Virus record (IMG/VR): IMGVR_UViG_3300036822_000118
Location: 1 to 20,124 of that record
Reading direction: 5' to 3' (one strand)
Length of the DNA stretch: 20,124 nucleotides
DNA from: a virus
In this document: one piece after another, positions 1,550-17,602 of the stretch
Position numbering within the stretch: position 1 is the first letter of the stretch
Layout of the letters: every line of letters starts with the position of its first letter
Position numbers and translations under genes: made by a program
The notes under the pieces: generated by a model
Told to the model about the DNA's origin: nothing
Databases searched by the model: none
What the model saw: only the letters and a program-made list of their open reading frames with translations

Positions 1550-2193
1550 CAGACCTCAAGCCTCACGTAGTGCATGAGTAGATTGTTGGTCGCTCCTCCG
1601 ATGATCCCTTGGATCGTCAGACCCTTACCCTGTTGGGTGGCGTCATAGTACATCACGCGGCTGTCCTTGTGGGATATGCTTCGTATCCCGATCACGGCCA
1701 GCCTGTTCATCAGGGCCTGACCCTCCCGCACCATCAAGGCGGCCGCCTGCTTCAGCGCCGGTGGTGTCTCATCCGGCAGATCATAGCCTCCAGAGTAGGT
1801 CACCTTGATCGGCTCACTATTGGTGGCCAGGAGCTCAATCTTTCCAGACTTCTCCTCCACCTCATAGGTAGATGGGTCGAGCACAGATCCAGTTGGGCTC
1901 TCCAGGGTCAGCGTGGCCTCAAGATCGATGGGATAGTGGCTCACAAACAACCTGGTCATGGAGTTCGTATTGTCGTAGTTCACACACCTCCAGATCTCAC
2001 TGACCTCCTCGTAGGCGAACACCCTGTTGCAGACGGTAGCGATCACGTCGGAGTACTGGGTGATGTAGGCCTGGAGCACCTCATCCTGACTGGTATCGGT
2101 AGGATTAATGCCAATCAGCACCTTCAAGTCATCCAGCGCGATCAGGTCATAGTTGTCCGCCGGAGTAATGATCTTGATGACCCGGTCAGCCAC
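1549..2193 (-). CDS. Head-tail connector protein, gp6-like, 214 aa
   Basis: This matches the gp6-like head-tail connector family, whose members form a ring under the portal. It has an N-terminal helical part with LDDLKVLIGINPTDTSQDEVL followed by QYSDVIATVCNRVFAYEE, then a beta-rich insert, and a C-terminal helix with TPPALKQAAALMVREG near residues 150-165. I prefer the GTG at 2193 (MADRVIKI) because AGGAGA lies at 2208-2203, nine bases upstream. An ATG at 2211 would add six residues but would place that same purine run inside the coding sequence. With the GTG start the overlap with the collagen-like gene upstream is 8 bases. Position after the portal region supports the call. Confidence 0.85.
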   Translation of the reverse strand: MADRVIKIITPADNYDLIALDDLKVLIGINPTDTSQDEVLQAYITQYSDVIATVCNRVFAYEEVSEIWRCVNYDNTNSMTRLFVSHYPIDLEATLTLESPTGSVLDPSTYEVEEKSGKIELLATNSEPIKVTYSGGYDLPDETPPALKQAAALMVREGQALMNRLAVIGIRSISHKDSRVMYYDATQQGKGLTIQGIIGGATNNLLMHYVRLEV

Positions 2194-3478
2194 GATGATT
2201 AATCTCCTCATTGTATTGTTCGAAGAGTGATCTGATGCACACCGGCTCGACCTCTATTCCATTGGACAAGACCGGAGTGATCGTATAGGTCTGCCTGTTC
2301 AACTTCCATGACTTGATAGTGGGGGCGTCCCTGCCTGGAGCGCCGGGACCTCCGCTCAAGCCACGCTCTCCCTGTTCACCCCTCGGCCCTGGCTTGCCTG
2401 GCTTTCCAGCGCTGGCGATCAACTGCCAACCGTCTCCCGGACACGGCCCTGGGTCGTCACACTTGGCGATGAAGCTCGAACCGTTGAGTGCCGCGATGTT
2501 CAAGAAGCTGTAGACGGCGTCATCTCTCCACGTACCCTTGATCAATGGTACTGCGGCGTTGGCGCCAGCGGCGGCCAGACAGATCCAATCGTCGTGTGGA
2601 GGGGCGTGGACCGTGTCACACTGGGCCTGGTACGTACCGCCCTTGTGCGTGACGACCTCACCGTGGTAGTTCACCCGACTCTCTGCGAACCTTCGGACCT
2701 CTCTCATTGACCCCGGCGCGCCATCCTTACCGGCTTGGCCGTCCTTACCTGTGAGACCCTGCTCGTCCTTCTCACCTCTCTGTCCTTGTATTCCGTCAAT
2801 GCCTTGCTCGCCCTTCTCGCCCTTTTCACCTTGCGTGCCATCTCTTCCTCCAATGCCCTGTTCACCTCGCTCACCACACTCGCCTTGAACGCCGGGATCG
2901 CCCTTCTCGCCTCGATCTCCAGTTGGCCCTACTGGACCGAGCTCGCCGGCTGGACCGCCAGGTCCTGGGTCGCCCCTCTCACCTGGACCTCCATTGATCC
3001 CAGCTTCTCCAGGAGAACCTTGCGAGCCTTGCTCTCCACGTTCTCCCTGGTCACCGCGCTCACCCTTTTCTCCGGAGACGCCTCGCTCGCCCTGGTCACC
3101 ACGGTCGCCCTTCTCCCCAGGCACTCCCTGGCCACCCATCTCTCCACGCTCACCTGGTTCTCCCCTCTCACCTTGAGGGCCTGCTGGGCCCATCGCTCCT
3201 GGAGGTCCAGCCGGGCCTGGCTCACCATCCCTTCCATCTTTGAGCTCAGCGAGCCTGGAGTTGATCCGCTCATTGAGCGTGGCAACCTGAGTCTCTAATC
3301 TGGATATGATCGCGCTCGACTGGGCCTCCATCAACTTGCAGTGGCGCTCCCATTCAGCATCCTTGCGATCGAGTATCTCCGCAAGAGCTATGCGCCACAC
3401 ATCAAGCAGAGTTTCTTCGCCGCTGTCCAACTCGCTCAGTGAGCCGGAGAAGGTTTCTGACTTCCCGTTGGATATCAT
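2186..3478 (-). CDS. Collagen-like virion protein with coiled-coil stem and carbohydrate-binding-like module, 430 aa
   Basis: The ATG at 3478 is preceded by AAGGG at suitable spacing. Earlier in-frame codons encode an improbable Leu/Arg-rich stretch inside the portal reading region, so the start is set here. Layout: residues 1-80 helical, with a likely trimerising coiled coil (about 48-80, containing LETQVATLNERINSRLAEL). Residues 82-255 are about 58 Gly-X-Y triplets rich in GER, GEK and GDR, with one Gly-to-Asp interruption (GEKDEQ). Next comes a two-part module with YHGEVVTHKGGTYQAQ and WICLA, resembling the small aromatic sugar-binding modules often attached to phage fibres. A second collagen run of about nine triplets follows, then a C-terminal domain of about 50 residues. 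It overlaps the portal gene by 77 bases. Likely a trimeric surface fibre; exact location on the virion is unknown. Confidence 0.85.
   Translation of the reverse strand: MISNGKSETFSGSLSELDSGEETLLDVWRIALAEILDRKDAEWERHCKLMEAQSSAIISRLETQVATLNERINSRLAELKDGRDGEPGPAGPPGAMGPAGPQGERGEPGERGEMGGQGVPGEKGDRGDQGERGVSGEKGERGDQGERGEQGSQGSPGEAGINGGPGERGDPGPGGPAGELGPVGPTGDRGEKGDPGVQGECGERGEQGIGGRDGTQGEKGEKGEQGIDGIQGQRGEKDEQGLTGKDGQAGKDGAPGSMREVRRFAESRVNYHGEVVTHKGGTYQAQCDTVHAPPHDDWICLAAAGANAAVPLIKGTWRDDAVYSFLNIAALNGSSFIAKCDDPGPCPGDGWQLIASAGKPGKPGPRGEQGERGLSGGPGAPGRDAPTIKSWKLNRQTYTITPVLSNGIEVEPVCIRSLFEQYNEEINHRG
2203..2208 (-). promoter_or_regulatory. Ribosome binding site deciding a GTG start
   Basis: AGGAGA on the minus strand, nine bases upstream of the GTG at 2193. 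It falls within the last codons of the collagen-like gene and favours the GTG over the ATG at 2211 for the connector gene. Confidence 0.6.
2711..3235 (-). repeat. Gly-X-Y triplet repeat tract coding for collagen-like rod
   Basis: About 58 consecutive glycine-led triplets, period nine bases. The repeated GGN codons on the minus strand also open long spurious frames in other registers on both strands. A GAC replaces the glycine codon in one triplet (GEKDEQ), the only break in the main tract. Confidence 0.9.
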
Positions 3479-4829
3479 CTTGGTTACCCTTCCCGGGTGG
3501 AGTTGGCTTGGCGTCCTCCGCAGGCGGCTTTGCCGGACCAGGAGGACCCGGAGCCGGAGGAGCCGGAGGGGCCGCAGGGATTGCTCCAGCCGCACTCAGT
3601 GGAACGACTTGTTGCTGCACTCTTGGCTCATCTCCGAACTTGACGTCCGGCAAACTCTCAGTGTTGCGAGCCTCATTGGGCGCGTAGATGCCACTTATAA
3701 CACCACGTGCCAATCCTTCAATGCGATCCTTAAATGCGGACCTGAGCAAAGCGGCCGTGTCAAACTCAACGTACTCATCCGGCTGGCCCTTGAGCTGAAA
3801 GAGCAGGCCGAGTGCCTCCTCGACGTGGTTGAGCGCGAACCCTAGACCAGAGGCAATCCAGCTCTGCATTAATAGCTCGGTGGAAGAGTACGCCGCTCCA
3901 CCGAGTCCCAAGATCTGGAGCGGTACTCGAAAGGCCAATGCGATGTGCTCATTGGTCAGCTTCATCATCTCAGCCGTCGCGGCGTCCTTGCCTCCAAAGG
4001 CCCACGGCTGGACCTTCAATCCCGCGGTCAAGATCGGCGTTCCGCCCTGGTGGACGCCCTGGACCTGTTCATTCCATTTGTCCCGAAGGGACTGGACCTG
4101 GTCCTTGTCCAACACGAGGTCGGTGGACAGAACCGCAGACGGCCTGGCCTCATTCATGTAAAACGCCTGCTGTTGCTTCGAGATCGCTCCAGCAACCGCC
4201 ATGTCTCCATAGGCCGCCAAGATCGGGCTCTCACCAACCAGAGGATTTGGGAAGCGACGGTTCACGTGGAGCTTGATGTGGAGCACGTCACGCATGGGCA
4301 CGACGAGATACTCCTCCCTGAACCTCTTGGCCACCACGTCATTTCCGGCCAGCCAATAGAATATGTCGCCGGTCTCAGCTAAGCGAGGATAGGACATCTC
4401 TGGGTGCATTGGGTGGAGCTCGTCGACCTCATAGCGATCATTGCGGAGCGCCAGTGCATATGCGTTGCCGGTCAAATAGAGCTGGCGGACTATGTTTAGC
4501 AGGAAGTCGCTGATCGATTGGTAGTCATTTGGATGTCGCAAGATGCGAGCGAGCGCAGAGTTCTTCACCCTGTCTCGCCCGCCCTTGGTGTTTAGTCTCC
4601 AATGGTCCCCTGGGCACATAGCGATCGTCTGGGCGTAGGCTGAGACGCAAGCCTCAACCATGGCCGAGCAGGTCGTCATGAACAGGGGATCATAGCCCTG
4701 CTGCCACCAGTTGATCGCCGCGTTCGCAGGCAACCAGCCTCCCGTAATGGGAAGATAGTATGGCCCGGGACGGTAGCTGCCCTCAACGGCCTTTAGGACC
4801 GACTTGAACCTGGCGATCAATCCTGGCAT
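3402..4829 (-). CDS. Phage portal protein, HK97 family, 475 aa
   Basis: The portal forms the dodecameric DNA entry ring at one capsid vertex. The length (475) is close to usual for HK97-type portals after allowing for a long Pro/Ala tail. Recognisable segments include WWQQGYDPLFMTTCSAMVEACV near the N-terminus, the helical wing with LLNIVRQLYLTGNAYAL, the LHPMHPEM turn, PNPLVGESPI, and FRVPLQILGLGGAAYSSTEL followed by a long helix. The C-terminus (about residues 415-450) is a Pro/Ala/Gly-rich linker, then a short basic helical tail. The gene follows a small charged protein two bases upstream, and its 3' end overlaps the collagen-like gene. The ribosome binding site is weak, suggesting coupling. 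Unlike canonical HK97 order, it lies downstream of the capsid gene. Confidence 0.93.
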   Translation of the reverse strand: MPGLIARFKSVLKAVEGSYRPGPYYLPITGGWLPANAAINWWQQGYDPLFMTTCSAMVEACVSAYAQTIAMCPGDHWRLNTKGGRDRVKNSALARILRHPNDYQSISDFLLNIVRQLYLTGNAYALALRNDRYEVDELHPMHPEMSYPRLAETGDIFYWLAGNDVVAKRFREEYLVVPMRDVLHIKLHVNRRFPNPLVGESPILAAYGDMAVAGAISKQQQAFYMNEARPSAVLSTDLVLDKDQVQSLRDKWNEQVQGVHQGGTPILTAGLKVQPWAFGGKDAATAEMMKLTNEHIALAFRVPLQILGLGGAAYSSTELLMQSWIASGLGFALNHVEEALGLLFQLKGQPDEYVEFDTAALLRSAFKDRIEGLARGVISGIYAPNEARNTESLPDVKFGDEPRVQQQVVPLSAAGAIPAAPPAPPAPGPPGPAKPPAEDAKPTPPGKGNQDDIQREVRNLLRLTERVGQRRRNSA

Positions 4830-5243: not shown

Positions 5244-7355
5244 CTACCAAGTGACGTTTTGGGTCCAAGCCACCGTACCTGCCCGGCGCTGCAACCAGTT
5301 CAGCGGCAGCACCATCCTCAGGGCTAGCGAGTCGGTCTGGAACAGCGAGCGCTGCGGAGTCGCAACGACGCCCGGAGAGCCAGCAACCAGGTCGGTCGGG
5401 CTGGTGTCCTCCATGTGCAGCGTGGCCTGGTCGCTCATCTCCATTCTCGGAGCGTCACCACCGACGACCACGAAGTCGGCCGCGTCCACCAAGATCATCG
5501 TCTTTGCCGGAACCGTAGCTGCATCGATGAACGGGATGGTGGCCAAGGTACCACCGCGAATTTCATCGCGGAACGGGAAGATGCCGGTATTAGCGGCCGA
5601 GAGCAGAGACGCACGGAGCATGTCCGTCTGGTTGACCAACCAGACCAAATTCCGCACGTTGCCGTAGGTGGCCGTGCTAATGGAATTGATCAGAGCTACG
5701 ATGTCTCCAACCAAGCCAGTGATGCCGCCACCGGCGGTCGCCGTGGTAACAGTCACGCCATTGAGCAGGCCGGCTGGCCTGATCGTGGTTGCGGGGTTCG
5801 CGTCGATCAACACAGTGTCGATCGCCACGCTCGTGTCCGTCTGGATGGCTTCTCTCAGGAGACCCTCGATCGCCGGGATGGAGTGCTCATCCATCTCCTT
5901 CGTCCAGGTCGTGATGACTGCCATCTTCTTTGGCGTCAGGGTTTGCGAGGTGAACGCACCCTGCCTGACCGGGATGGCCAGACCCTCACCCACGAACGAC
6001 CCAGCCAGGCTGGGCGTGCGAGAGCGAGTTGGGATGACAATCTTGCCGGTCTGCCCAAAGCTCAGAGCCAGTCCCTTCGGCGCGAGCCGAGTGAGGATCG
6101 CCTTGGGCATTAGGAGCGGCATCAGCGGAGCAAACGTGGTCTGGACGAGCTCCTGGGCCCAACCGGCTACGTTGGTCATCGCTGGGGCTGAGGCCGAGCG
6201 GAGCACTATGTCGGCAATCAGCTTGACCGCGTCATCCTTGTAGTCCGGATAGCGGGCTGCGATCTTGGCTCGAGTATCCTCGAGGCTGCTCCCCCAGCCC
6301 TTGGAGAAGTAGGCCAGAGTGCCAGCCTTGACGAACAGATCGAGCGGATCGAACTCCTTCGTCCGGTTGTGGATCACCGTCGGAGCCTGCACTCGCTCTC
6401 CAACGGAGGAGGGGACTAGCGACCTCCCGTTGCGAACTGGCTCCGTGGATCTAGCCAACAGCTTCTCACTATCGATGAGAGCCTCGCGGGTCCGCTCGAG
6501 CTGGACGAGATCGTCCCTGAACTTGCCGGCGATCTCCAGGTCGGTGTCACTTACGTTGCTGTCGTCCATATGGTCGATGTGGTTTTGAAGAGCATCACGC
6601 CGGGAGGTGATCTGGGCCTCCAAGTCAATGATGCGTTGGGCCAAGCTAGACATGGGTCTAACCCTTTCATTTCGATGTGACTTGGCGTGCCCGCCGTTGA
6701 TCGTCTTCCTGATCGTATGGTCTCTTTTGCCTTGCCCGGCGAATACCATGTCGATCGTCTCAGACGAGATACCCAGGGACTTCGCTACAGCAAGTGCGTT
6801 TGGGTTTGCCGGTACGGCGACCACGCTGGTCTCGATCAGCTCGCACTTGGTGTAGACGCTGCCCCAGTCGGTTCCTTCTCGATCGTTCCTCTCCTTCGGC
6901 CTGAAGCCGACGGAGACCGCGCGGAGGATGCCTGCCTCGATCAGTCGCCTGATCTCGTCGATCCTCGGACTGGTCCCCTCCTTGGCCAGCTCGAGGTGAC
7001 CACGCAGCTGCTTGTTCTCTACGCGGACGTTCGCCCACTTCCCAATCGGAAATGCGCTGTTGTGGCCAAACAGCGCGATCGGGTTCTTCTTGAACTCTCG
7101 GAGGTCCCACCCGTCGGACAGGATGACGTCGTCCATCCGATCGGGCGTCTCGTCCGAGAGGATGAACTCCATCCCGCTGACCTGCGAGGCGTGGGTCTTG
7201 TATTTTACCCCGCCGGCGCCGCGGTCCTCCCAGAGCGTCTGGCAGACGTCCTCGTTGCCTAGCTCATCGATGCAGTCGGACATGAACTCATCCTGCTCAT
7301 CATCCTCGTAGTCGCCTGGATCAGGGACCTGCTTGTCCTTGAGCTTCTTCAACAT
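5244..7355 (-). CDS. Fused prohead protease and HK97-type major capsid protein, 703 aa
   Basis: This single chain combines the maturation protease and the capsid subunit. Residues 1-60 are acidic and of unknown role. Residues 60-195 are the HK97-type serine protease: the histidine lies in ALFGHNS (H98) and the serine in LRAVSVGF (S148), followed by LIETSVVAVPANPNA. Residues 205-234 are a basic linker. Residues 235-320 form a delta-like helical domain (LAQRIIDLEAQI), and about 335-703 the capsid fold with SAPAMT, EGLAIPVRQ, SQTLTPKK and PQRSLFQTDSLALRM. The ATG at 7355 follows GAGAGGAG eight bases upstream and overlaps the preceding gene by 35 bases. Self-cleavage between domains is expected for such fusions. 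An internal ribosome binding site before Met235 could also yield capsid subunit alone. Confidence 0.93.
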   Translation of the reverse strand: MLKKLKDKQVPDPGDYEDDEQDEFMSDCIDELGNEDVCQTLWEDRGAGGVKYKTHASQVSGMEFILSDETPDRMDDVILSDGWDLREFKKNPIALFGHNSAFPIGKWANVRVENKQLRGHLELAKEGTSPRIDEIRRLIEAGILRAVSVGFRPKERNDREGTDWGSVYTKCELIETSVVAVPANPNALAVAKSLGISSETIDMVFAGQGKRDHTIRKTINGGHAKSHRNERVRPMSSLAQRIIDLEAQITSRRDALQNHIDHMDDSNVSDTDLEIAGKFRDDLVQLERTREALIDSEKLLARSTEPVRNGRSLVPSSVGERVQAPTVIHNRTKEFDPLDLFVKAGTLAYFSKGWGSSLEDTRAKIAARYPDYKDDAVKLIADIVLRSASAPAMTNVAGWAQELVQTTFAPLMPLLMPKAILTRLAPKGLALSFGQTGKIVIPTRSRTPSLAGSFVGEGLAIPVRQGAFTSQTLTPKKMAVITTWTKEMDEHSIPAIEGLLREAIQTDTSVAIDTVLIDANPATTIRPAGLLNGVTVTTATAGGGITGLVGDIVALINSISTATYGNVRNLVWLVNQTDMLRASLLSAANTGIFPFRDEIRGGTLATIPFIDAATVPAKTMILVDAADFVVVGGDAPRMEMSDQATLHMEDTSPTDLVAGSPGVVATPQRSLFQTDSLALRMVLPLNWLQRRAGTVAWTQNVTW
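6651..6667 (-). promoter_or_regulatory. Candidate internal ribosome binding site and start for unfused capsid protein
   Basis: On the minus strand AAAGGG (6667-6662) lies eight bases before an in-frame ATG at 6653, which is Met235 of the fusion and the first residue of the delta-like domain. Initiation here would give a 469-residue delta-plus-capsid protein lacking the protease. The placement exactly at the domain boundary is suggestive. Use in vivo cannot be judged from sequence. Confidence 0.4.
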
Positions 7356-7788
7356 GATCTAATCTCCTCTCTGGTTCAATCAGAGGCACCTGGGCCGATC
7401 GCTCCAATAATAGGCGAGGAGTACGACTGCGACCAACCAATACCGTGACTTGAGACGCCGCTGTTCCCCACGGATCAGCCGAGACGAAGATGTATCCCCC
7501 AATGAATGGCGTGGCCGACACGCCAGCATAGATCACGCGCAGGGCGTGGGTGTAGGCCGCAGTGATCAGACGCGTCGTCACATTTGCCGGAACCAGCACG
7601 TTCAATTGGCCCTGGAGAGCGTTCGTCACCTGGATGCTGACCTCTGCCGACTGGATGACTCGATGGCCACCAGTCAGCATCGTCCATAGGATCTGGGGCG
7701 AGCCAGAGAGGTCGAACGCGGTGCCGTCTGGATTGAGCAACGTGAATTGCAGCTTCCAGTCATCGCCCGCTACCAAGTGAACCGTCAT
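7321..7788 (-). CDS. Small beta-sandwich structural protein (BppU N-terminal/Ig-like fold), 155 aa
   Basis: The pattern is that of a phage beta-sandwich module: GDDWKLQFTLLNPDGTAFDL at the N-terminus, a strand with VQVTNA-like turn near the middle, then a stretch of strands ending PFIGGYIFVSADP (about 102-114). This resembles the N-terminal fold of BppU-like baseplate/fibre proteins. The last 40 residues are charged and less ordered. The start overlaps the upstream gene stop as ATGA, and the end overlaps the protease-capsid fusion by 35 bases. It probably belongs to the virion, as a decoration, fibre or baseplate component. The fold suggestion is from pattern only. Confidence 0.75.
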   Translation of the reverse strand: MTVHLVAGDDWKLQFTLLNPDGTAFDLSGSPQILWTMLTGGHRVIQSAEVSIQVTNALQGQLNVLVPANVTTRLITAAYTHALRVIYAGVSATPFIGGYIFVSADPWGTAASQVTVLVGRSRTPRLLLERSAQVPLIEPERRLDHVEEAQGQAGP

Positions 7789-9692
7789 GGCATCTGTCCA
7801 GTAAAACCAGGAGGAGGTGACTTCTGTCCCTTAAAGGACGGAGGAGATGGCTTCAGCCCAAACAACGTAACAGCTGCGGATGCCCGTGCAATCAAAGCCG
7901 CCGGAGCTGTCTCTTGCGCCACAAACTCCGGCGGCGATTTGATCTGAGCTACGAAGTGACCACCGAACGCCTCGGCGAACAGGCCGACCGTTCTGACTAC
8001 GATCGGGGCCGACTCAACCAGCATGAGCTGGCCAGCCGACGGCCTGATCCCACTGCCTAAGCTAGTGGCTGGAGCGTGTCCGACCAGCACCATCTCGGCC
8101 GACGAGGCGACCCGATTGATGTTCCCAACCAGGACCGGCGCAGACGGAGCGAGTGTCAGGCCGCCGGCAGGCGGATTGACGAACACGCCGGCCGTCTGTG
8201 CTATGACTGGCGGCAGCGAGGAGAGCGTTATGTTCACTCTCGCCGGAGCAATGACCAGACCGGACAGCACCGAGGGCGCCGTCTCAGTCAGCGTCAGGCT
8301 GGCCTTAGCTGGCACGATCGACCAGTTCACCGACAGCGAGACAACCGGAGCAGTCTCAGCCAGCACCAGGTCTGACTTTGGCACTATCAGCACGACGTTG
8401 GCGGACAGCGCCACGGTCGGCGCGATCTCCGTCAAGGCCAGGCTAGCCTTCGGCGGAACGATGCTGATCGAGGCGCTCGATTGAACGCCAGGAGCACTGG
8501 AGGTCAGCACCATCTCATATTGAGATGGTGCTATAGATACGTTAGCGGTGAGCGCGAGGCTCGGAGCGGTTTCCGTTAGCGCCAATCCGACCGACGGAGG
8601 ACTGACCGCAACATTAGCACTGACCGCGAGACTAGGCGCGGTCTCCGTCAAGGTCAGATTGACCCGCGGAGGAACGATACTGACCGAGGCGCTCGACTGA
8701 ACGCCCGGAGCACTGGTGGTCAGCACCATCTCATATTGAGGTGGTATCGAAGATACGTTAGCTGTGAGCGCGAGACTCGGCGCCGTCTCGGACAGCGTAA
8801 GAGTTGCCTTGGGCGGACTGACCCCAACCGGAGTTGAGACGATCGGTGCGGTCTCGGTCAGCACCAAGCCGACCGATGGAGGACTGATCGCAATATTGAC
8901 AACGGAGCTCGGAGCAGTCTCAGTCAGAGTCAATCCGACCGACGGAGGACTGACCGAAATATTAGCACTGACTAGAACGCTCGGCGAAGTCTCACTAAGA
9001 ACCAGAGCCGCGCTCGGCGGACTGATCGAGACGCTAGCTCCGGCCGAGACAATCGGCGCCGTCTCACTCAAGACCAGCGCGCGACTGGCCGGAGAGATAT
9101 TGACATTGTTCGAGAGCAGGACGCTTGGAGCCGTCTCACTCAGGCTCAACGCCACGCTCGGCGGAACAATAGCAACGTTGGCAGTTGTAGTGACCGAGGG
9201 CGCGGTCTCGGTAAGACTGAGCGCGTAGCTTGCGAGCGAGATATTGAGATTGTTCGAGAGCAGAACTGTCGGAGCTGTCTCACTCAGACTGAGCGCCACA
9301 CTCGGCGGAGAGATGGCAACGTTGGCGGCTACGGTGACCGACGGCGCGGAGGTATTTAGTGCGAGCTCATTGGCCGACGGAGAAATGGCAAAGTTGTTAG
9401 TGGTCGCGACCGATGGAGCGGTCTCGCTGAGGAGCATCTCATAAGTGGCAGGCGAGATGCTGGAATTAGCGGTGGTAACTACTGAAGGAGCAGTAGTGGT
9501 TAGCGTAAGTTCATAAGCAGAAGGCGATTCTGGTGTGTCAACGGCGGCGAGAATGGAGCCTTGAACGATCGGGTATGGCCTAAGTTGTGGGCCACCGCCT
9601 AACTTGCGAGGAGTGTAGAACGAAGGCTGCGCCAAAGCTGGAGCCGCGACTCCAACCGGCAACTCCTTGAGCAAACTGTAGACATAGTACAT
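7785..9692 (-). CDS. Tandem 24-residue repeat protein, about 22 copies, 635 aa
   Basis: The unit is roughly LTLTETAPSV followed by a variable 6-8 residue strand and ISPPS, spaced every 22-25 residues through about residues 59-576. The N-terminal 58 residues are unique. The C-terminal 59 residues change to a short PPxF motif (SPPEFVAQ, PPSFKGQ, PPGFTGQ). Composition is Ser/Thr/Pro/Ala/Val rich with no cysteine in the repeats, which suggests an extended beta structure such as a fibre or spine. ATG at 9692 with AGGAGAA upstream; its stop overlaps the next start (ATGA). No signal peptide, so virion incorporation rather than Sec export is likely. No enzymatic motif seen. Probably a tail fibre, head fibre or decoration protein. 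Confidence 0.85.
   Translation of the reverse strand: MYYVYSLLKELPVGVAAPALAQPSFYTPRKLGGGPQLRPYPIVQGSILAAVDTPESPSAYELTLTTTAPSVVTTANSSISPATYEMLLSETAPSVATTNNFAISPSANELALNTSAPSVTVAANVAISPPSVALSLSETAPTVLLSNNLNISLASYALSLTETAPSVTTTANVAIVPPSVALSLSETAPSVLLSNNVNISPASRALVLSETAPIVSAGASVSISPPSAALVLSETSPSVLVSANISVSPPSVGLTLTETAPSSVVNIAISPPSVGLVLTETAPIVSTPVGVSPPKATLTLSETAPSLALTANVSSIPPQYEMVLTTSAPGVQSSASVSIVPPRVNLTLTETAPSLAVSANVAVSPPSVGLALTETAPSLALTANVSIAPSQYEMVLTSSAPGVQSSASISIVPPKASLALTEIAPTVALSANVVLIVPKSDLVLAETAPVVSLSVNWSIVPAKASLTLTETAPSVLSGLVIAPARVNITLSSLPPVIAQTAGVFVNPPAGGLTLAPSAPVLVGNINRVASSAEMVLVGHAPATSLGSGIRPSAGQLMLVESAPIVVRTVGLFAEAFGGHFVAQIKSPPEFVAQETAPAALIARASAAVTLFGLKPSPPSFKGQKSPPPGFTGQMP
7965..9518 (-). 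repeat. Tandem repeat tract, about 22 units of 66-75 bases
   Basis: The tract encodes the ETAP...SPPS units. A higher-order repeat of 216 bases (three units) is visible: 8451-8562 closely matches 8667-8778, including the YEMVL...SAPGVQSSAS units. Units differ at many third positions, so the array is old enough to have diverged, but the 216-base copy is more recent. Confidence 0.85.
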
Positions 9693-12323: not shown

Positions 12324-13172
12324 TCAGTCTCCTATCTCTGGTGACACCTGCGTTCCGAGCTCTGCAGCGATCCTCATGATCGCTGCAATCAGCCCTTTGC
12401 CTCGCACATTGAGTCGGAATTTATCACCGTGCTCATGAATTAATGCTTGGAAGTCCACCGCCTGCCTCATCATCCACGGTGCGCACATGAAGCTGCACCA
12501 CAAGTCCTCCCGACCCTCCGGGCGCAACCAGGTCTTGAGCCGCATGTCATCGTCGTTCTCCGGCTGCGCGTAACCGTGGTGATCATCGTCCATCCAGCAG
12601 CTGTCCAGGCCGAATATATCGAATGTGCGAAAGCCCAGCATGGTCAGCAACAGGATGGCACGAATGGCGACCGTAGTGCCACCCGTGATTGGATTGAATC
12701 GATTGAAGTAATACTGTTTCAACAGGTCCATCTCTGGCTGGCCGCCCGAGCAGCAGTGCCAGATCGTAACGTCGCGATCCTTGCAGAGTTCGAACGCAAC
12801 TGGATGGCACTGAGCAGCCAACAGGTAGCGACACTTCTCAACTGGAGTTGCAACAAATCGAGCATTGAATTCCCGCGCATCCAGCATCACCATGCAGGAC
12901 GGGCGGATGTTGCGATCTATGCACCACTGGTAGGAGCCATTCAGCGCGATGACCTTGGCGCCGTTCCAGTAAGCATTGATCAGATCGCGCTCGGTGGTCC
13001 TCAGCGATGGACCGCCGCAGACCAACGCGACCCTCTCCTCATTCGGTGCATGCGGGTACGCCTGGGGCAGTTGCCGACGGATGTTGGCCTTGACCTGCTC
13101 AATGATCACCTCGTCTGGGACGTTGCAACCATCCTCCGGATTGAACGTCACCTTGTGGAGTATCTCATTCAT
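12324..13172 (-). CDS. DUF115/Maf-type 6-hydroxymethylpterin-pyrophosphokinase-like or glycosyltransferase-like protein, 282 aa
   Basis: The nucleotide-binding motif VALVCGGPSL (residues 48-57) and the following IALNGSYQWCIDRNIRP (75-91) with MVMLDARE match the DUF115 / Maf-flag10 superfamily. Members include the archaeal MptE pterin enzyme and motility-associated factors that glycosylate flagellin. Further motifs are PITGGTTVAIRAILL and FDIFGLDSCWMDDDHH (about 165-200), as in phage and bacterial members. It starts with an ATGA overlap from the methyltransferase and completes a three-gene cassette with a GT9-like enzyme. A role in sugar transfer to a virion protein or a host surface structure is inferred. 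Pterin synthesis is unlikely from the context. Confidence 0.75.
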   Translation of the reverse strand: MNEILHKVTFNPEDGCNVPDEVIIEQVKANIRRQLPQAYPHAPNEERVALVCGGPSLRTTERDLINAYWNGAKVIALNGSYQWCIDRNIRPSCMVMLDAREFNARFVATPVEKCRYLLAAQCHPVAFELCKDRDVTIWHCCSGGQPEMDLLKQYYFNRFNPITGGTTVAIRAILLLTMLGFRTFDIFGLDSCWMDDDHHGYAQPENDDDMRLKTWLRPEGREDLWCSFMCAPWMMRQAVDFQALIHEHGDKFRLNVRGKGLIAAIMRIAAELGTQVSPEIGD

Positions 13173-13741
13173 GGCTTACCCACCACATAGAGCGCGGAGC
13201 CGCACAGGTCGCGCGCGTCGATCACGTGACCCAGGGTGCGCAAATGGTCGAGCCACCACCTGAACGGTCGCACCGTCAGGTGCAGCGGCTGGTCGATCAC
13301 CAGTCCGAACTGGTCCGGCACCAGCGCGATCTGGAGCCACGTGGTGCGGCACACCGATATGATCCGATCTAACGCCAGCATGGTATACTCGGGCGGCACG
13401 TGCTCCATCACGTCACAGCAGAAGCCATAGTCATAACCGAGCCACTGGCGCCTGGCCCAGTCGCCCCACAACTCCTGCTCGATGAACCGCCGGCGCGGGA
13501 CGTCGGGGTGCAGGCCAGCGGCAGTGATGTCGAGCCAGCTCACATCAAACCCAAACTCAGCAAACTTCAGACCAGCCTCGCCCGTGCCGCAGCCGACGTC
13601 GATCAATGACGCCCTGGCTTGGGGGTGCATCACCTGGAGGAAGCGATCAACGTTCTCCAAACCTGGAGAGTACTCACGATATTCCGGCACATCACTCCAC
13701 AGTTCGGTGTACTTGTCACGCTCAATGTCGGTGATACTCAT
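13169..13741 (-). CDS. Class I SAM-dependent methyltransferase, 190 aa
   Basis: Motif I is LIDVGCGTGEAG (residues 46-57). The acidic residue after strand 2 is in VSWLDITAAGL and a motif-IV-like segment is FCCDVMEHVPPE. The fold and length suit a small Rossmann methyltransferase with no target-recognition domain. I set the start at the ATG at 13741 (MSITDIERDKYTELW), typical of the family. Longer frames up to 13825 have no ribosome binding site and overlap the GT9-like gene more deeply. Even the chosen start lacks a clear purine run and probably relies on coupling (20-base overlap). Context suggests sugar or protein O-methylation rather than DNA methylation, but the substrate is unknown. Confidence 0.8.
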   Translation of the reverse strand: MSITDIERDKYTELWSDVPEYREYSPGLENVDRFLQVMHPQARASLIDVGCGTGEAGLKFAEFGFDVSWLDITAAGLHPDVPRRRFIEQELWGDWARRQWLGYDYGFCCDVMEHVPPEYTMLALDRIISVCRTTWLQIALVPDQFGLVIDQPLHLTVRPFRWWLDHLRTLGHVIDARDLCGSALYVVGKP

Positions 13742-14906
13742 CACAGTCACGCTGGGCCAGAGCGCTGGGCCAGTCTTCATCCGAGACTTGGCGACAGAGC
13801 TTGACGTTGTCGTACCATCTTGCACACCACCTCCAGCTCGACCAATGAGACAGAAGTCCGGTCACTCTGGGATGGCCGATCGCTCCTGCGAGGTGGAGCG
13901 CCGCCGTGTCCACGCTGACGATCTCATCCATGGCCATCATCAACCCGGCGCAGTCGGCGAAGCTCTCGAGCTTGTGGGGGATGATCCCGTGGTCGGCGGC
14001 CTCGTCGGAGCCCTGGGACTGGACGCTATGCAACTCTGCGTCACCGCCGAGGGCCTGGGCCAGCAGGTCGAGCTCAATCTCTCTGGGGTAGTCCCCGACG
14101 CTGGGCTTTCCCACGGACCAGGCCACACCTATCCGCCTTCGCATCTTCGATCCCAAATCTATGTGCCACTTGTTGGATGTATGCATGGGCGGGCGGAGGT
14201 ACGGCACCCCAGACACTATGTCCGGAGTGATATTGAGTATGTAGAGCAAATGGAGGATCGGAGCGAAGAAGTCGCAGTCGATCGGCTCAGCGACCACGAT
14301 CCCACACTGCTCGGCCATCTTGCGCAGTTCGGGAGGCATGACCATGATCGTCTTGGGCATGTCCCGCACGTAGCGCATCATCATGATGCTGTCACCGAAC
14401 CCATGGGCGTGGATCAGGAGCAGCCGCTTCCCGGTCAGTGGCTCACCCTTCCACGGCCGCAGACCCATGGTGAGCGCCTGCTCGACCTGGGGTCTCATGA
14501 ACGGTCTGCTTTGCTCACACTCCCAGTACTCGTGCAGACCCTCGCGCCACCGACCGGCCGCCAGCAGGACCATGGCCCGGTTGAACTTGGCCCTCAGGGT
14601 GGGGGCCGCCAGGAGGGTCAGATCGGCTTCCACGAGGGCGTCCGATAGCTCGTTGCGCTTGTACAGCTCAACCACTCGGTTGAAGTGGAGGAGGTAGTCA
14701 TTGATGTCCACCCTCAGCTCGTTGGTGATCCTTCGCCTGCCGATCGCTCTACCTTGGTGAAATACCAGGGTGGAGTCGGGCACGCCCGCCCCACCCCTGA
14801 CCTCGAACACCTCTCCACAGCCGGTCAATCCCCTCCAGCCATAGGAGGTCTGCTCGCAGGACACGATCGGATCCATGTCCGGCACGTCGTCGAAGAAGCC
14901 ATTCAT
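13722..14906 (-). CDS. TPR-like plus GT9-type glycosyltransferase-like protein, 394 aa
   Basis: Residues 70-135 are TPR-like helices (YLLHFNRVVELYKRNELSDA, then FNRAMVLLAAGRWREGLHEY). Residues 150-390 resemble the GT9 (heptosyltransferase) fold joined to TPRs in many bacteria and phages: LLLIHAHGFGDSIMMMRYV (162-180), RIGVAWSVGKPS (258-269), and the nucleotide-sugar-site motif DEIVSVDTAALHLAGAIG (327-344) followed by WSSWRWCARWY and a final DW. In this family the VDTA..HLAGA segment is the hallmark. The N-terminal 60 residues are unassigned and contain several Cys. It begins five bases after the capsid paralogue and overlaps the methyltransferase. Likely acts on a glycan; acceptor unknown. 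Confidence 0.8.
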   Translation of the reverse strand: MNGFFDDVPDMDPIVSCEQTSYGWRGLTGCGEVFEVRGGAGVPDSTLVFHQGRAIGRRRITNELRVDINDYLLHFNRVVELYKRNELSDALVEADLTLLAAPTLRAKFNRAMVLLAAGRWREGLHEYWECEQSRPFMRPQVEQALTMGLRPWKGEPLTGKRLLLIHAHGFGDSIMMMRYVRDMPKTIMVMPPELRKMAEQCGIVVAEPIDCDFFAPILHLLYILNITPDIVSGVPYLRPPMHTSNKWHIDLGSKMRRRIGVAWSVGKPSVGDYPREIELDLLAQALGGDAELHSVQSQGSDEAADHGIIPHKLESFADCAGLMMAMDEIVSVDTAALHLAGAIGHPRVTGLLSHWSSWRWCARWYDNVKLCRQVSDEDWPSALAQRDCDEYHRH

Positions 14907-14910
14907 CGCA

Positions 14911-15993
14911 CTACTTCCATATCGGAGTGAGCCAGGCCACGCCCCGCACGTCGCGGAGCACCCAGGACACTGGCCACCTCATCTTCAGCGCGATGCTCTC
15001 ACTCTGGAACAGGCTCCGCTCAGGCCCGGTTGACCCGAAGGTCCCAGTGGGCACGCTGTCCATCAGCAGGGTGCCGGTGCTGGCCGTCTCCATGTCCGGG
15101 GCAGGACTGATCGCGGCGGCCAGGGCCTGGGGTGCGACCACGACCACGTCGGCGCCCACCGCCGGAGAGGCCACTGGGATGATCGTCGCATCGGTGCCCT
15201 CAGCCTTGAGGCTGCCGTATCGCCCGCTGGCGCTGGCCAGGCGACCGATCGAGGAGATGATGAAGAATGGTCCGCTGCCTCCGACCGGACCGACGCCGTT
15301 GAGCAGGGTGGCCATGTCCTCGAAGAAGGCGCCGAACGCGTCCGTGTTGGCGCTCGGAGTCAGCGCCGTGATCCCATTGCGGATGCCCGCAGGGGCGGCC
15401 GCACTTGCGGCGGTGTTTCCGAACAGCACCGCGTCCAGGGCCAGACCAGCCGACCTGACCAGCGTGTCCCCGAGGATCACCTCTGCGTTCGAGCTCTCGA
15501 CCATCTCCCGCGTGAGCACGACGATCGAGGCCAGCTTGTGGGGCAGCAGGGTCTGGCTCGTGTCCGCGAACTGGCGGACCGGGATGGGATCACCCTCCGC
15601 GACAAACCCCGCACTGCCCGCAGAGGCCACGAACCCAGGCACGCCGAGGCTCCCAGCGCCGTTCCAGGTGAGCAGCAGGCTGCGACCCAAGACCGTAGCC
15701 CCGGCGGACGAGGCGCCGAGCGCCTGGACGATGTCCGCGGTCACCTTGTGGGCGAGCTCGGCCGCCCACCCGACCGTCGTGGTCATGGCAGGAGCCGAGG
15801 CCGCCTTGACCACAGCGGCCAGCTCTCGGTCGCTGGGCCACATCTCCGCGGCCACCAGATCGACGGCCCGTCGCTTGACCACGGCCACGGCCCTGGCCGC
15901 CAGCATCCGTCGGAACAGATTGCCCCGGGGCAGGTCGAGCGGTGGCTCGCTCTTATGGAAGGTCAGTGGCGCCGGCTTGATCATCTCATTCAT
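14911..15993 (-). CDS. Second HK97-fold major-capsid-like protein (paralogue), no protease or delta domain, 360 aa
   Basis: The sequence parallels the capsid half of the fusion at 5244-7355. SAPAMTTTVGWAAEL (residues 66-80) matches SAPAMTNVAGWAQEL there. Shared motifs further on include EGDPIPVRQ, SQTLLPHK and LTREM, GIRNGIT, and the C-terminal PERSLFQSESIALKMRWPVSW next to an RxVAW end. The first 60 residues are short and basic rather than a delta domain, and no protease gene is adjacent. The ATG at 15993 has an excellent AGGAGGT upstream, among the best in the window, implying strong translation. It lies 10 bases after TerL and precedes the sugar cassette. Could be a minor or vertex capsid subunit, or a replacement capsid gene. 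Confidence 0.88.
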   Translation of the reverse strand: MNEMIKPAPLTFHKSEPPLDLPRGNLFRRMLAARAVAVVKRRAVDLVAAEMWPSDRELAAVVKAASAPAMTTTVGWAAELAHKVTADIVQALGASSAGATVLGRSLLLTWNGAGSLGVPGFVASAGSAGFVAEGDPIPVRQFADTSQTLLPHKLASIVVLTREMVESSNAEVILGDTLVRSAGLALDAVLFGNTAASAAAPAGIRNGITALTPSANTDAFGAFFEDMATLLNGVGPVGGSGPFFIISSIGRLASASGRYGSLKAEGTDATIIPVASPAVGADVVVVAPQALAAAISPAPDMETASTGTLLMDSVPTGTFGSTGPERSLFQSESIALKMRWPVSWVLRDVRGVAWLTPIWK

Positions 15994-16003
15994 GCGTGAC
16001 CTC

Positions 16004-17602
16004 CTATGCGATCAGTGTGTCCAAATCGACGACCTTCTTCTGCTCCTTCACGGCACCGGCGGACAGGGCCATAGCCATGGCCACGAGGGCGTCGATCCTG
16101 GACCGATACTTCGTGTTGCTCTTGTCGAACTTCCGTCCACCCGCTGGGTCCTTGACCACCACGGCGTTGTTGGCGCACCAGGTCAGCACCGGGTTCAGCC
16201 CGTGGCGGATCTTCTCCTGGATGATCAACCGCTCCACGCAGTCGACCGCCGGGGTCATGTCCTTGTAGCCCTGGCCGTGCTCGACCAGCGACACCCGGCA
16301 GCCGATCCCGTCCAGCTCTCGCTTGAGCTCGTGGATGCGCCACCGGTCGAACGCGAGACCCTGGATCGGGTTGACCCCGTTGACCTCGGCGATCTTCCTG
16401 GCCACAGCTCGGGGGTCTGTCGCAACCCCCGAGGCAATAACCAGGCCCTGTCGCTCCCAGACCTCGTAGGGCACGCCGTCCTCCTCGCCCTTGTCCCGCA
16501 GGTTGCCAGGCACCCACACCCAGCACTTGATGTTCCAGTCCCCACTCTGGTCGCAGTAGGCGATCACCAGCGCCGTAAGGTCCCTCGTGCTGCCGATGTC
16601 CAGCCCGGCCCAGACCTTGGCGCCGTGGGGAATTAGCGGCTCCTGGCCGCAGGCCTTCCAGGCTGAGGGCTCCATGAACCTGGCCTCCGCGGCCACTCGC
16701 TGGTTCAGGATCAGGTTGCGGAACGCGTTCTCCTTTGTAGCCATCCGCTGGGCCTGGTTGGCCAACCGCTTCACGTCCTCCTTCGACCTGAAGTCACCGA
16801 GCGCGGGGTTGGCCAGCTCCCAGGTGTCCTCGTCCCACGGGTCCGCGTCCTCGGGCGCGGCGTACAGGGTGAGGTGGAAGGAGTTGTCCTTGATCTCTCC
16901 GGCGTTCACTTTGATCCCATAGTCGATCAGGTGGGACAGCGGGGCGTAGCTGTCGGCCGCCTGCGTAGAGATGACCAGCATCAGCGGCTCCTTGCGGGCA
17001 CCCATCGCGCTGTCCATGGCGTCGTACAGCTCGCGAGAGTTGGCCTGGCCTAACTCGTCATATACAACGAAACTGGGTGACAAACCCATTTTCGTTTTAG
17101 CTTCCGATGTAAGCGTGTAGTAGATCGTCCCGTTGTACACGTCGGTCATGCTCTTGGTGAAGGACGAGATGTTCACCCGGGCGCACAGCCACGGGTGGTG
17201 CATGACGATCGCCTCCATCTCGTTGTAAATCTTGCCAGCCTGGAACCGGTCATTGGCGCAGGCGTACACCTCGCCGCGGCTCTCAGCCTCTGGCCCAGAT
17301 AGGTGGCAGAGCGCAAGGGCGGCAGCCAGTTGGGTCTTGCCGTTCTTGCGGGCCATGCTCAGGAGCGCCGTGCGGACCATGCGGAGGTCCCGCTGGTTGA
17401 TCCGGTAGACGCTCCTGATGAACCGCCTCTGCCACGGCCTCAGGAGCAGCTTCTTCCCGCTGTCGGCGCCACTAGTGACCGTGAGGTCCTCGATGAATGC
17501 CATCACCCGCTCGGCGCGGGAGAGGCCAGGCTTGTCCCATGGGTTCACCCTCTGCGGGGGGGTGGACGCCTTCGGAATGGCGCCTATGCCTCTCCTGCCC
17601 AT
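16004..17602 (-). CDS. Terminase large subunit (HK97/Terminase_1 type), 532 aa
   Basis: The ATP-driven packaging motor and nuclease. The ATPase domain has a degenerate Walker A in SMARKNGKT (82-90), Walker B FVVYDE (178-183) with catalytic Glu, and the coupling motif ISTQA (211-215). The RNase H-like nuclease domain has Asp335 (AGLDIGSTRD), Asp419 (GLAFDRWRIHELK) and Asp504 (SRIDALVAMA). The length is usual for this family. The N-terminal 30 residues are basic and probably bind the small subunit or portal. The ATG at 17602 follows the HPI-repeat gene by eight bases with only a weak GTGAG-like binding site. No small-subunit gene is recognisable next to it, which is unusual. Confidence 0.95.
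   Translation of the reverse strand: MGRRGIGAIPKASTPPQRVNPWDKPGLSRAERVMAFIEDLTVTSGADSGKKLLLRPWQRRFIRSVYRINQRDLRMVRTALLSMARKNGKTQLAAALALCHLSGPEAESRGEVYACANDRFQAGKIYNEMEAIVMHHPWLCARVNISSFTKSMTDVYNGTIYYTLTSEAKTKMGLSPSFVVYDELGQANSRELYDAMDSAMGARKEPLMLVISTQAADSYAPLSHLIDYGIKVNAGEIKDNSFHLTLYAAPEDADPWDEDTWELANPALGDFRSKEDVKRLANQAQRMATKENAFRNLILNQRVAAEARFMEPSAWKACGQEPLIPHGAKVWAGLDIGSTRDLTALVIAYCDQSGDWNIKCWVWVPGNLRDKGEEDGVPYEVWERQGLVIASGVATDPRAVARKIAEVNGVNPIQGLAFDRWRIHELKRELDGIGCRVSLVEHGQGYKDMTPAVDCVERLIIQEKIRHGLNPVLTWCANNAVVVKDPAGGRKFDKSNTKYRSRIDALVAMAMALSAGAVKEQKKVVDLDTLIA

Follow-up and report, generated by a model that had tools for sequence, protein, structure and literature searches.

Why would a tailed phage whose main capsid gene already combines a protease, a scaffold-like segment and a capsid domain encode a second capsid-like protein beside its terminase? 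The question is raised by a viral DNA stretch of 20,124 nt (IMG/VR record IMGVR_UViG_3300036822_000118), which is called the window here.

The two capsid genes of the window

The second gene, Cap2, occupies positions 14911..15993 on the minus strand (as do all window features given below), begins with ATG and encodes a protease-less protein of 360 aa with a predicted HK97 fold. The main capsid gene, Cap1 (5244..7355), encodes a 703-aa fusion of an S78 prohead protease (6741..7172, residues ~62-205, delimited by PF04586 and the structural model), delta/scaffold-like helices (6447..6644, residues ~238-303, with model helices at 238-261 and 270-303), and an HK97 capsid domain (5247..6206, residues ~384-703) that aligns with Cap2 residues 61-354. 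In BLASTP, Cap2 and the fusion are 33% identical over 315 aa (E 7e-32). The motifs that the first-pass annotation of this DNA had listed as common to Cap2 and the capsid half of the fusion (SAPAMT..GWA.EL; EG..IPVRQ; SQTL.P.K; and the C-terminal RSLFQ(S/T)(E/D)S.ALKMR/ALRM and VAW) appear in the same order in that alignment. Profile-profile comparison of the two families gave an E-value of 1.2e-46 over 332 columns, and the ~50 residues just before SAPAMT are retained in Cap2 and homologous to Cap1. Both proteins match PHROG 617 'major head protein' (phrog_617; E 1.3e-15 for Cap2) and PF05065 (Phage_capsid), where Cap2 scores 22.3 bits (E 9.9e-5), just under the gathering score of 24.2 bits; among the Cap2 orthologues, 7 of 44 match PF05065 at E 0.01 or better. 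These alignments make Cap2 a genuine paralogue of Cap1 in its capsid half, with a resemblance far beyond chance. As had been noted, it lacks the S78 protease (PF04586 was found in the fusion only, E 2.9e-9) and the long delta-like helical segment, which has no counterpart in Cap2. A search of the Cap2 sequence profile against the PDB found no capsid by sequence beyond a chance-level encapsulin match.

The unusually strong ribosome binding site reported for Cap2 is real in the window, where the Shine-Dalgarno sequence AGGAGGT (15999..16005) lies 5 nt upstream of the ATG and shares nucleotides with the stop codon of the terminase large subunit gene (TerL, 16004..17602; PF20441 and PF03354). Most orthologues have GGAG only, so the strong site is not a trait of the family. 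Promoter and terminator scans around Cap2 yielded nothing above shuffled sequences.

The Cap2 model has a pLDDT of 81.6 (AlphaFold2, 44 orthologues). Its best structural match (Foldseek, VIA-align) is HK97 prohead I, with Z 16.3 over 245 residues, followed by D3 proheads, a cf-PICI capsid, encapsulins and GTA capsids; the encapsulin matches reach Z 14.7 and include 9bje and 9bix from Streptomyces lydicus. Structure prediction thus places Cap2 firmly in the HK97 fold, as the first-pass annotation had supposed. In the model of the fusion the protease and delta parts are good and the capsid half has a pLDDT below 50. In HK97-type shells the A-domain tip lines the capsomer centre. Cap2 residues 259-268, the most variable internal part of the protein, form a tip of the A-domain region that contains alignment gaps, is modelled with low confidence and has a pair identity of 0.26, while the Cap1 segment aligned to it, AANTGIFPFR, has a pair identity of 0.83. 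The shortened, hypervariable tip suggests that Cap2 sits in a capsomer environment other than that of Cap1.

Conservation of the pair

Cap2 was located at 71 loci in a scan of viral contigs, and at additional ones in subsequent scans. The fusion was present in all 31 unique Cap2 loci with at least 8 kb of downstream sequence (from 103 unique metagenomic Cap2 loci) and Cap2 in all 64 fetched fusion loci that extend 3.5 kb or more upstream, numbers that carry an ascertainment effect since many loci were fetched via Cap2 and the fusion scan covered the 80 closest of more than 590 matches. Both genes are present in 15 of 15 larger records (14 viral contigs of 35-96 kb and one bacterial genome). 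Profile searches of all loci gave a recurrent order of TerL, Cap2, a TPR/GT9-like gene, in some cases a methyltransferase, the fusion and the portal. The window has in this order a putative glycosyltransferase with TPR and GT9-like parts (13722..14906), conserved directly downstream of Cap2, a class I SAM methyltransferase (13169..13825) and a portal protein (3402..4829; PF04860 E 2.4e-67); in many relatives a different methyltransferase-like gene takes the methyltransferase interval. The search of other genomes that had been proposed as a check therefore shows the pair recurring in a fixed arrangement. The distance of 7.5 kb between the two genes, which had been singled out, is correct for the window but atypical: it is shared with L003 only, because several further genes sit between Cap2 and the fusion in these two, and the gap is typically 1-2 kb elsewhere.

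Some open reading frames are recorded here as separate observations. In the window, the additional genes that separate Cap2 from the fusion include those for a 635-aa protein of degenerate repeats (SP...L.LSETAPSV; 7785-9692) and a protein with an MptE-like domain (PF01973; 12324-13172), and a long collagen-like protein of GXX repeats adjoins the portal gene (2186-3595). Around the fusion, L069 (3327-7514), L070 (3991-8289) and L044 (14093-17641) have reading frames that stay open for 1183-1433 codons and add several hundred codons at the N-terminus, which may be a real extension or just open frame.

Cap2 is under purifying selection, weaker than that on Cap1 (median dN/dS 0.39 and 0.13, respectively), and its invariant residues persist across 50-85% identity. 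Cap1 and Cap2 distances correlate among 66 loci (Mantel r 0.67; none of 5000 permutations reached this value), as joint inheritance would predict. Conservation and selection speak strongly against the idea that Cap2 is a decaying remnant, which the first-pass annotation had named among the outcomes that would refute its reading, and mark it as a genuine conserved second capsid protein.

The tailed phages with the Cap2/fusion pair occur in metagenomes and as Bradyrhizobium prophages: Cap2 was found in Bradyrhizobium stylosanthis, whose strain BR 446 has the pair in L074, and in two further genomes of a 266-genome Bradyrhizobium search. One Bradyrhizobium genome (G213) has three separate prophages (L201, L202, L203), each with the pair. 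Other fusion phages do without Cap2. It is missing between TerL and the fusion in the Bradyrhizobium prophages L190-L194 and L209 and in the 8 kb read upstream of the fusion in L195 (a distance that does not reach TerL), and in the cultured phages PAJU2, Salmonella phage FSL SP-016 and Rhizobium phage RHph_X2_26 the fusion follows TerL directly. These three encode a homologous protease-delta-capsid fusion between TerL and portal, as the window does, and differ from it in having no second capsid gene. A fusion capsid can evidently work without Cap2. A tblastn search with Cap2 against 50,697 phage records gave no match, so this reference collection does not reveal the pair.

Lone capsids of satellite-like islands and the probable origin of Cap2

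The same 266-genome search found 24 lone protease-less capsid genes, and genes of this type are present in further genera of the order. By gene calls backed with Pfam and PHROG, 21 of the 24 have a tyrosine integrase in the surrounding island, 19 a primase or replication gene and 12 a TerS-like gene, and in up to 17 of the 24 a charged, coiled-coil-like ORF directly follows the capsid. No portal, S78 protease or TerL was found inside the islands of the 22 genomes concerned, and half of these genomes have no recognised portal anywhere. By gene content the islands look like phage satellites. Genomes G039 and G182 each contain a lone-capsid island as well as a fusion prophage. Capsid-forming PICIs are comparable as satellites with a capsid protein of their own, but their gene set comprises a capsid, a protease, a portal, connectors and the two terminase subunits (PMC10690885), whereas the lone-capsid islands have the capsid and often TerS without TerL, portal or protease. 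Four loci, L198 (8600-17100), L199 (5600-16200), L207 (4900-14600) and L221 (1100-10300), may represent a new Bradyrhizobium satellite type of ~10 kb with an integrase, a primase or Rep, a lone HK97 capsid, a charged coiled-coil-like protein and TerS, and with no TerL, portal or protease. The proteins directly after the lone capsids in L197 (8633-9172), L215 (6082-6594) and L217 (8321-8890) have a common C-terminal motif, FFYLDD.G.KQD..LH.PILRAVD, and are possible scaffold or size factors. Two scans of viral contigs with single lone-capsid sequences retrieved only Cap2-less fusion phages (L249, L250) or nothing. Neither the Cap2/Cap1 pair nor a Bradyrhizobium satellite of this type was reported in the open-access papers searched.

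In a capsid tree with the cultured fusions as outgroup, Cap2 is monophyletic (100/100), and so is Cap1 of the Cap2 phages (100/100), which lies among the other fusions. Cap2 is nested among the lone capsids, with support of 97/98 and 98/95; some lone capsids have long branches, and L212, L213 and L219 fall outside the main lone clade. Two phage contigs, L023 (1079-3176) and L122 (1-2482), have a third capsid gene of the lone type directly beside Cap2. These third copies sit next to L199, a lone capsid; the separate pair partner of L196 is likewise found beside a lone capsid, L222. AU tests framed post hoc, after the tree was seen, rejected a tree that unites Cap2 and the fusions and leaves out the lone capsids (p 0.0036), and also one in which Cap2, the third copies and the partner in L196 share a single origin (p 0.0005). 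The latter points to at least three separate pairings of lone-type capsids with fusion phages.

The direct adjacency of Cap2 and the fusion in L074, L204 and L196 invites the idea of a tandem duplication of Cap1 within the lineage, which the tree and the AU test disfavour. Cap2 belongs to the lone-capsid lineage by phylogeny, but it is located between TerL and the fusion and portal of a full phage structural cluster. Most likely, Cap2 was taken over from the lone capsids carried by satellite-like integrative elements and did not arise by duplication of Cap1; a transfer from lone capsid to phage is the direction suggested by parsimony only. The first-pass annotation had offered 'a hybrid of two phage lineages' as one explanation. 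That proposal survives in an unexpected form: Cap2 would indeed come from a capsid lineage other than that of Cap1, namely the lone capsids of satellite-like islands. The distinctive point of the system is this origin, i.e., the apparent repeated recruitment of a satellite-type capsid beside the main capsid gene. A phage group with a fixed second capsid gene, a putative glycosyltransferase and a satellite-like capsid root offers a testable route to the origin of hetero-subunit shells, and may inform how capsid genes pass between satellites and phages and are put to new uses.

Possible roles of the second capsid protein

Cap2 has neither delta segment nor protease, is consistently encoded with a Cap1 that has both, and is selected and co-inherited with it; co-assembly is the simplest explanation. 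From homology, fold, pair conservation and phylogeny we infer, with a probability of about 0.58, that Cap2 is a second, lower-constraint subunit co-assembling with Cap1 in one procapsid. Cap1 would supply the protease and the scaffold-like delta segment, Cap2 would enter the Cap1 procapsid via conserved contacts of the E-loop, spine and P-domain, and the protease of Cap1 would mature Cap2, giving a virion with a two-subunit HK97 shell. Pentons or special capsomers are the leading guess for the placement of Cap2, with mixed capsomers as an alternative. Since the pair is constant and Cap2 is closest to the lone island capsids, this would probably be a two-protein shell of partly satellite-type ancestry. 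One precedent for co-assembly is T4 gp23/gp24 (PMC9958956). Another is the two-component Family 2B encapsulin of S. lydicus, in which two HK97-fold proteins form one shell of variable composition (PMC12407261); that shell is a compartment of the cell and has neither a portal nor a protease, and it packages no genome.

A narrower form of the co-assembly reading, which we regard as possible but doubtful, would make Cap2 the vertex (penton) subunit, in pentamers at 11 vertices with Cap1 in the hexamers. T4 is the well-known phage shell built of two HK97-fold capsid paralogues; its gp24 forms pentamers at the icosahedral vertices and has a short N-terminal peptide that is cut by the prohead protease. 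In that single shell gp23 provides the hexamers and gp24 the vertices, and the two HK97-fold subunits are ~20% identical (PMC9958956). The window resembles T4 in having two HK97-fold paralogues in one phage (33% identical here), the second copy with the shorter pre-sequence. The divergent, shortened tip of Cap2 lies in the A-domain, the domain where T4 gp24-bypass mutations map (PMC9958956), and the lower constraint on Cap2 fits a minor subunit. The differences are that Cap1 is fused to its protease and that Cap2 groups with lone island capsids. Duplication of the phage's own gene, as proposed for T4 gp24, is an origin that the AU test disfavours for Cap2 (p 0.0036), and sister fusion phages without Cap2 must build pentons from Cap1 alone.

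More tentatively, tailed phages may have repeatedly captured the capsid gene of previously undescribed minimal satellites consisting of an integrase, a primase and a lone capsid, often with a charged coiled-coil-like protein and TerS, and with no portal, TerL or protease. Under this proposal both the phage and the satellite versions would co-assemble with the fusion capsid, so that satellites would redirect the shell of their helper, and the phages would have domesticated one such capsid as an obligatory second subunit.

Compatible with co-assembly, and in our estimate rather improbable, is a role of Cap2 as the substrate of the adjacent TPR/GT9-like enzyme, i.e., a glycosylated subunit that alters the virion surface. 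Of the 129 loci that offer sufficient sequence, 97 have the start of the enzyme gene at most 200 nt from Cap2; in the majority of the others it is slightly further away or missed by the start rule. The enzyme has TPRs and an invariant motif, DTAA.H.AGA.GH, and is absent from the full-length Cap2-less fusion prophage loci examined. However, L074/L105, L204 and L196 have a Cap2-type gene with no enzyme gene beside it, the GT9 Pfam support is weak though recurrent (15 of 19 members, best E 7e-5), and the target could be another virion protein.

A role of Cap2 in setting capsid size or in competition, with satellite ancestry, is in our view unlikely; such a factor would shift the shell size or stop the lone capsids of putative satellites from hijacking Cap1. 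Cap2 does form one clade with the lone capsids of the integrase/primase/TerS islands, and the three or more separate pairings with fusion phages and the extra lone-type copies beside Cap2 in L023 and L122 would suit such a function. The similarity of the Cap2 model to encapsulins raises the thought of a separate particle, an encapsulin-like compartment or alternative head outside the Cap1 shell; no conserved cargo gene accompanies Cap2, its linkage to Cap1, TerL and portal is strict and the HK97 prohead is its best structural match, which makes a separate particle very improbable. Least credible of all is a decaying or redundant duplicate, since the threefold higher dN/dS of Cap2 relative to Cap1 is set against 103 unique loci, a fixed position, purifying selection and invariant residues.
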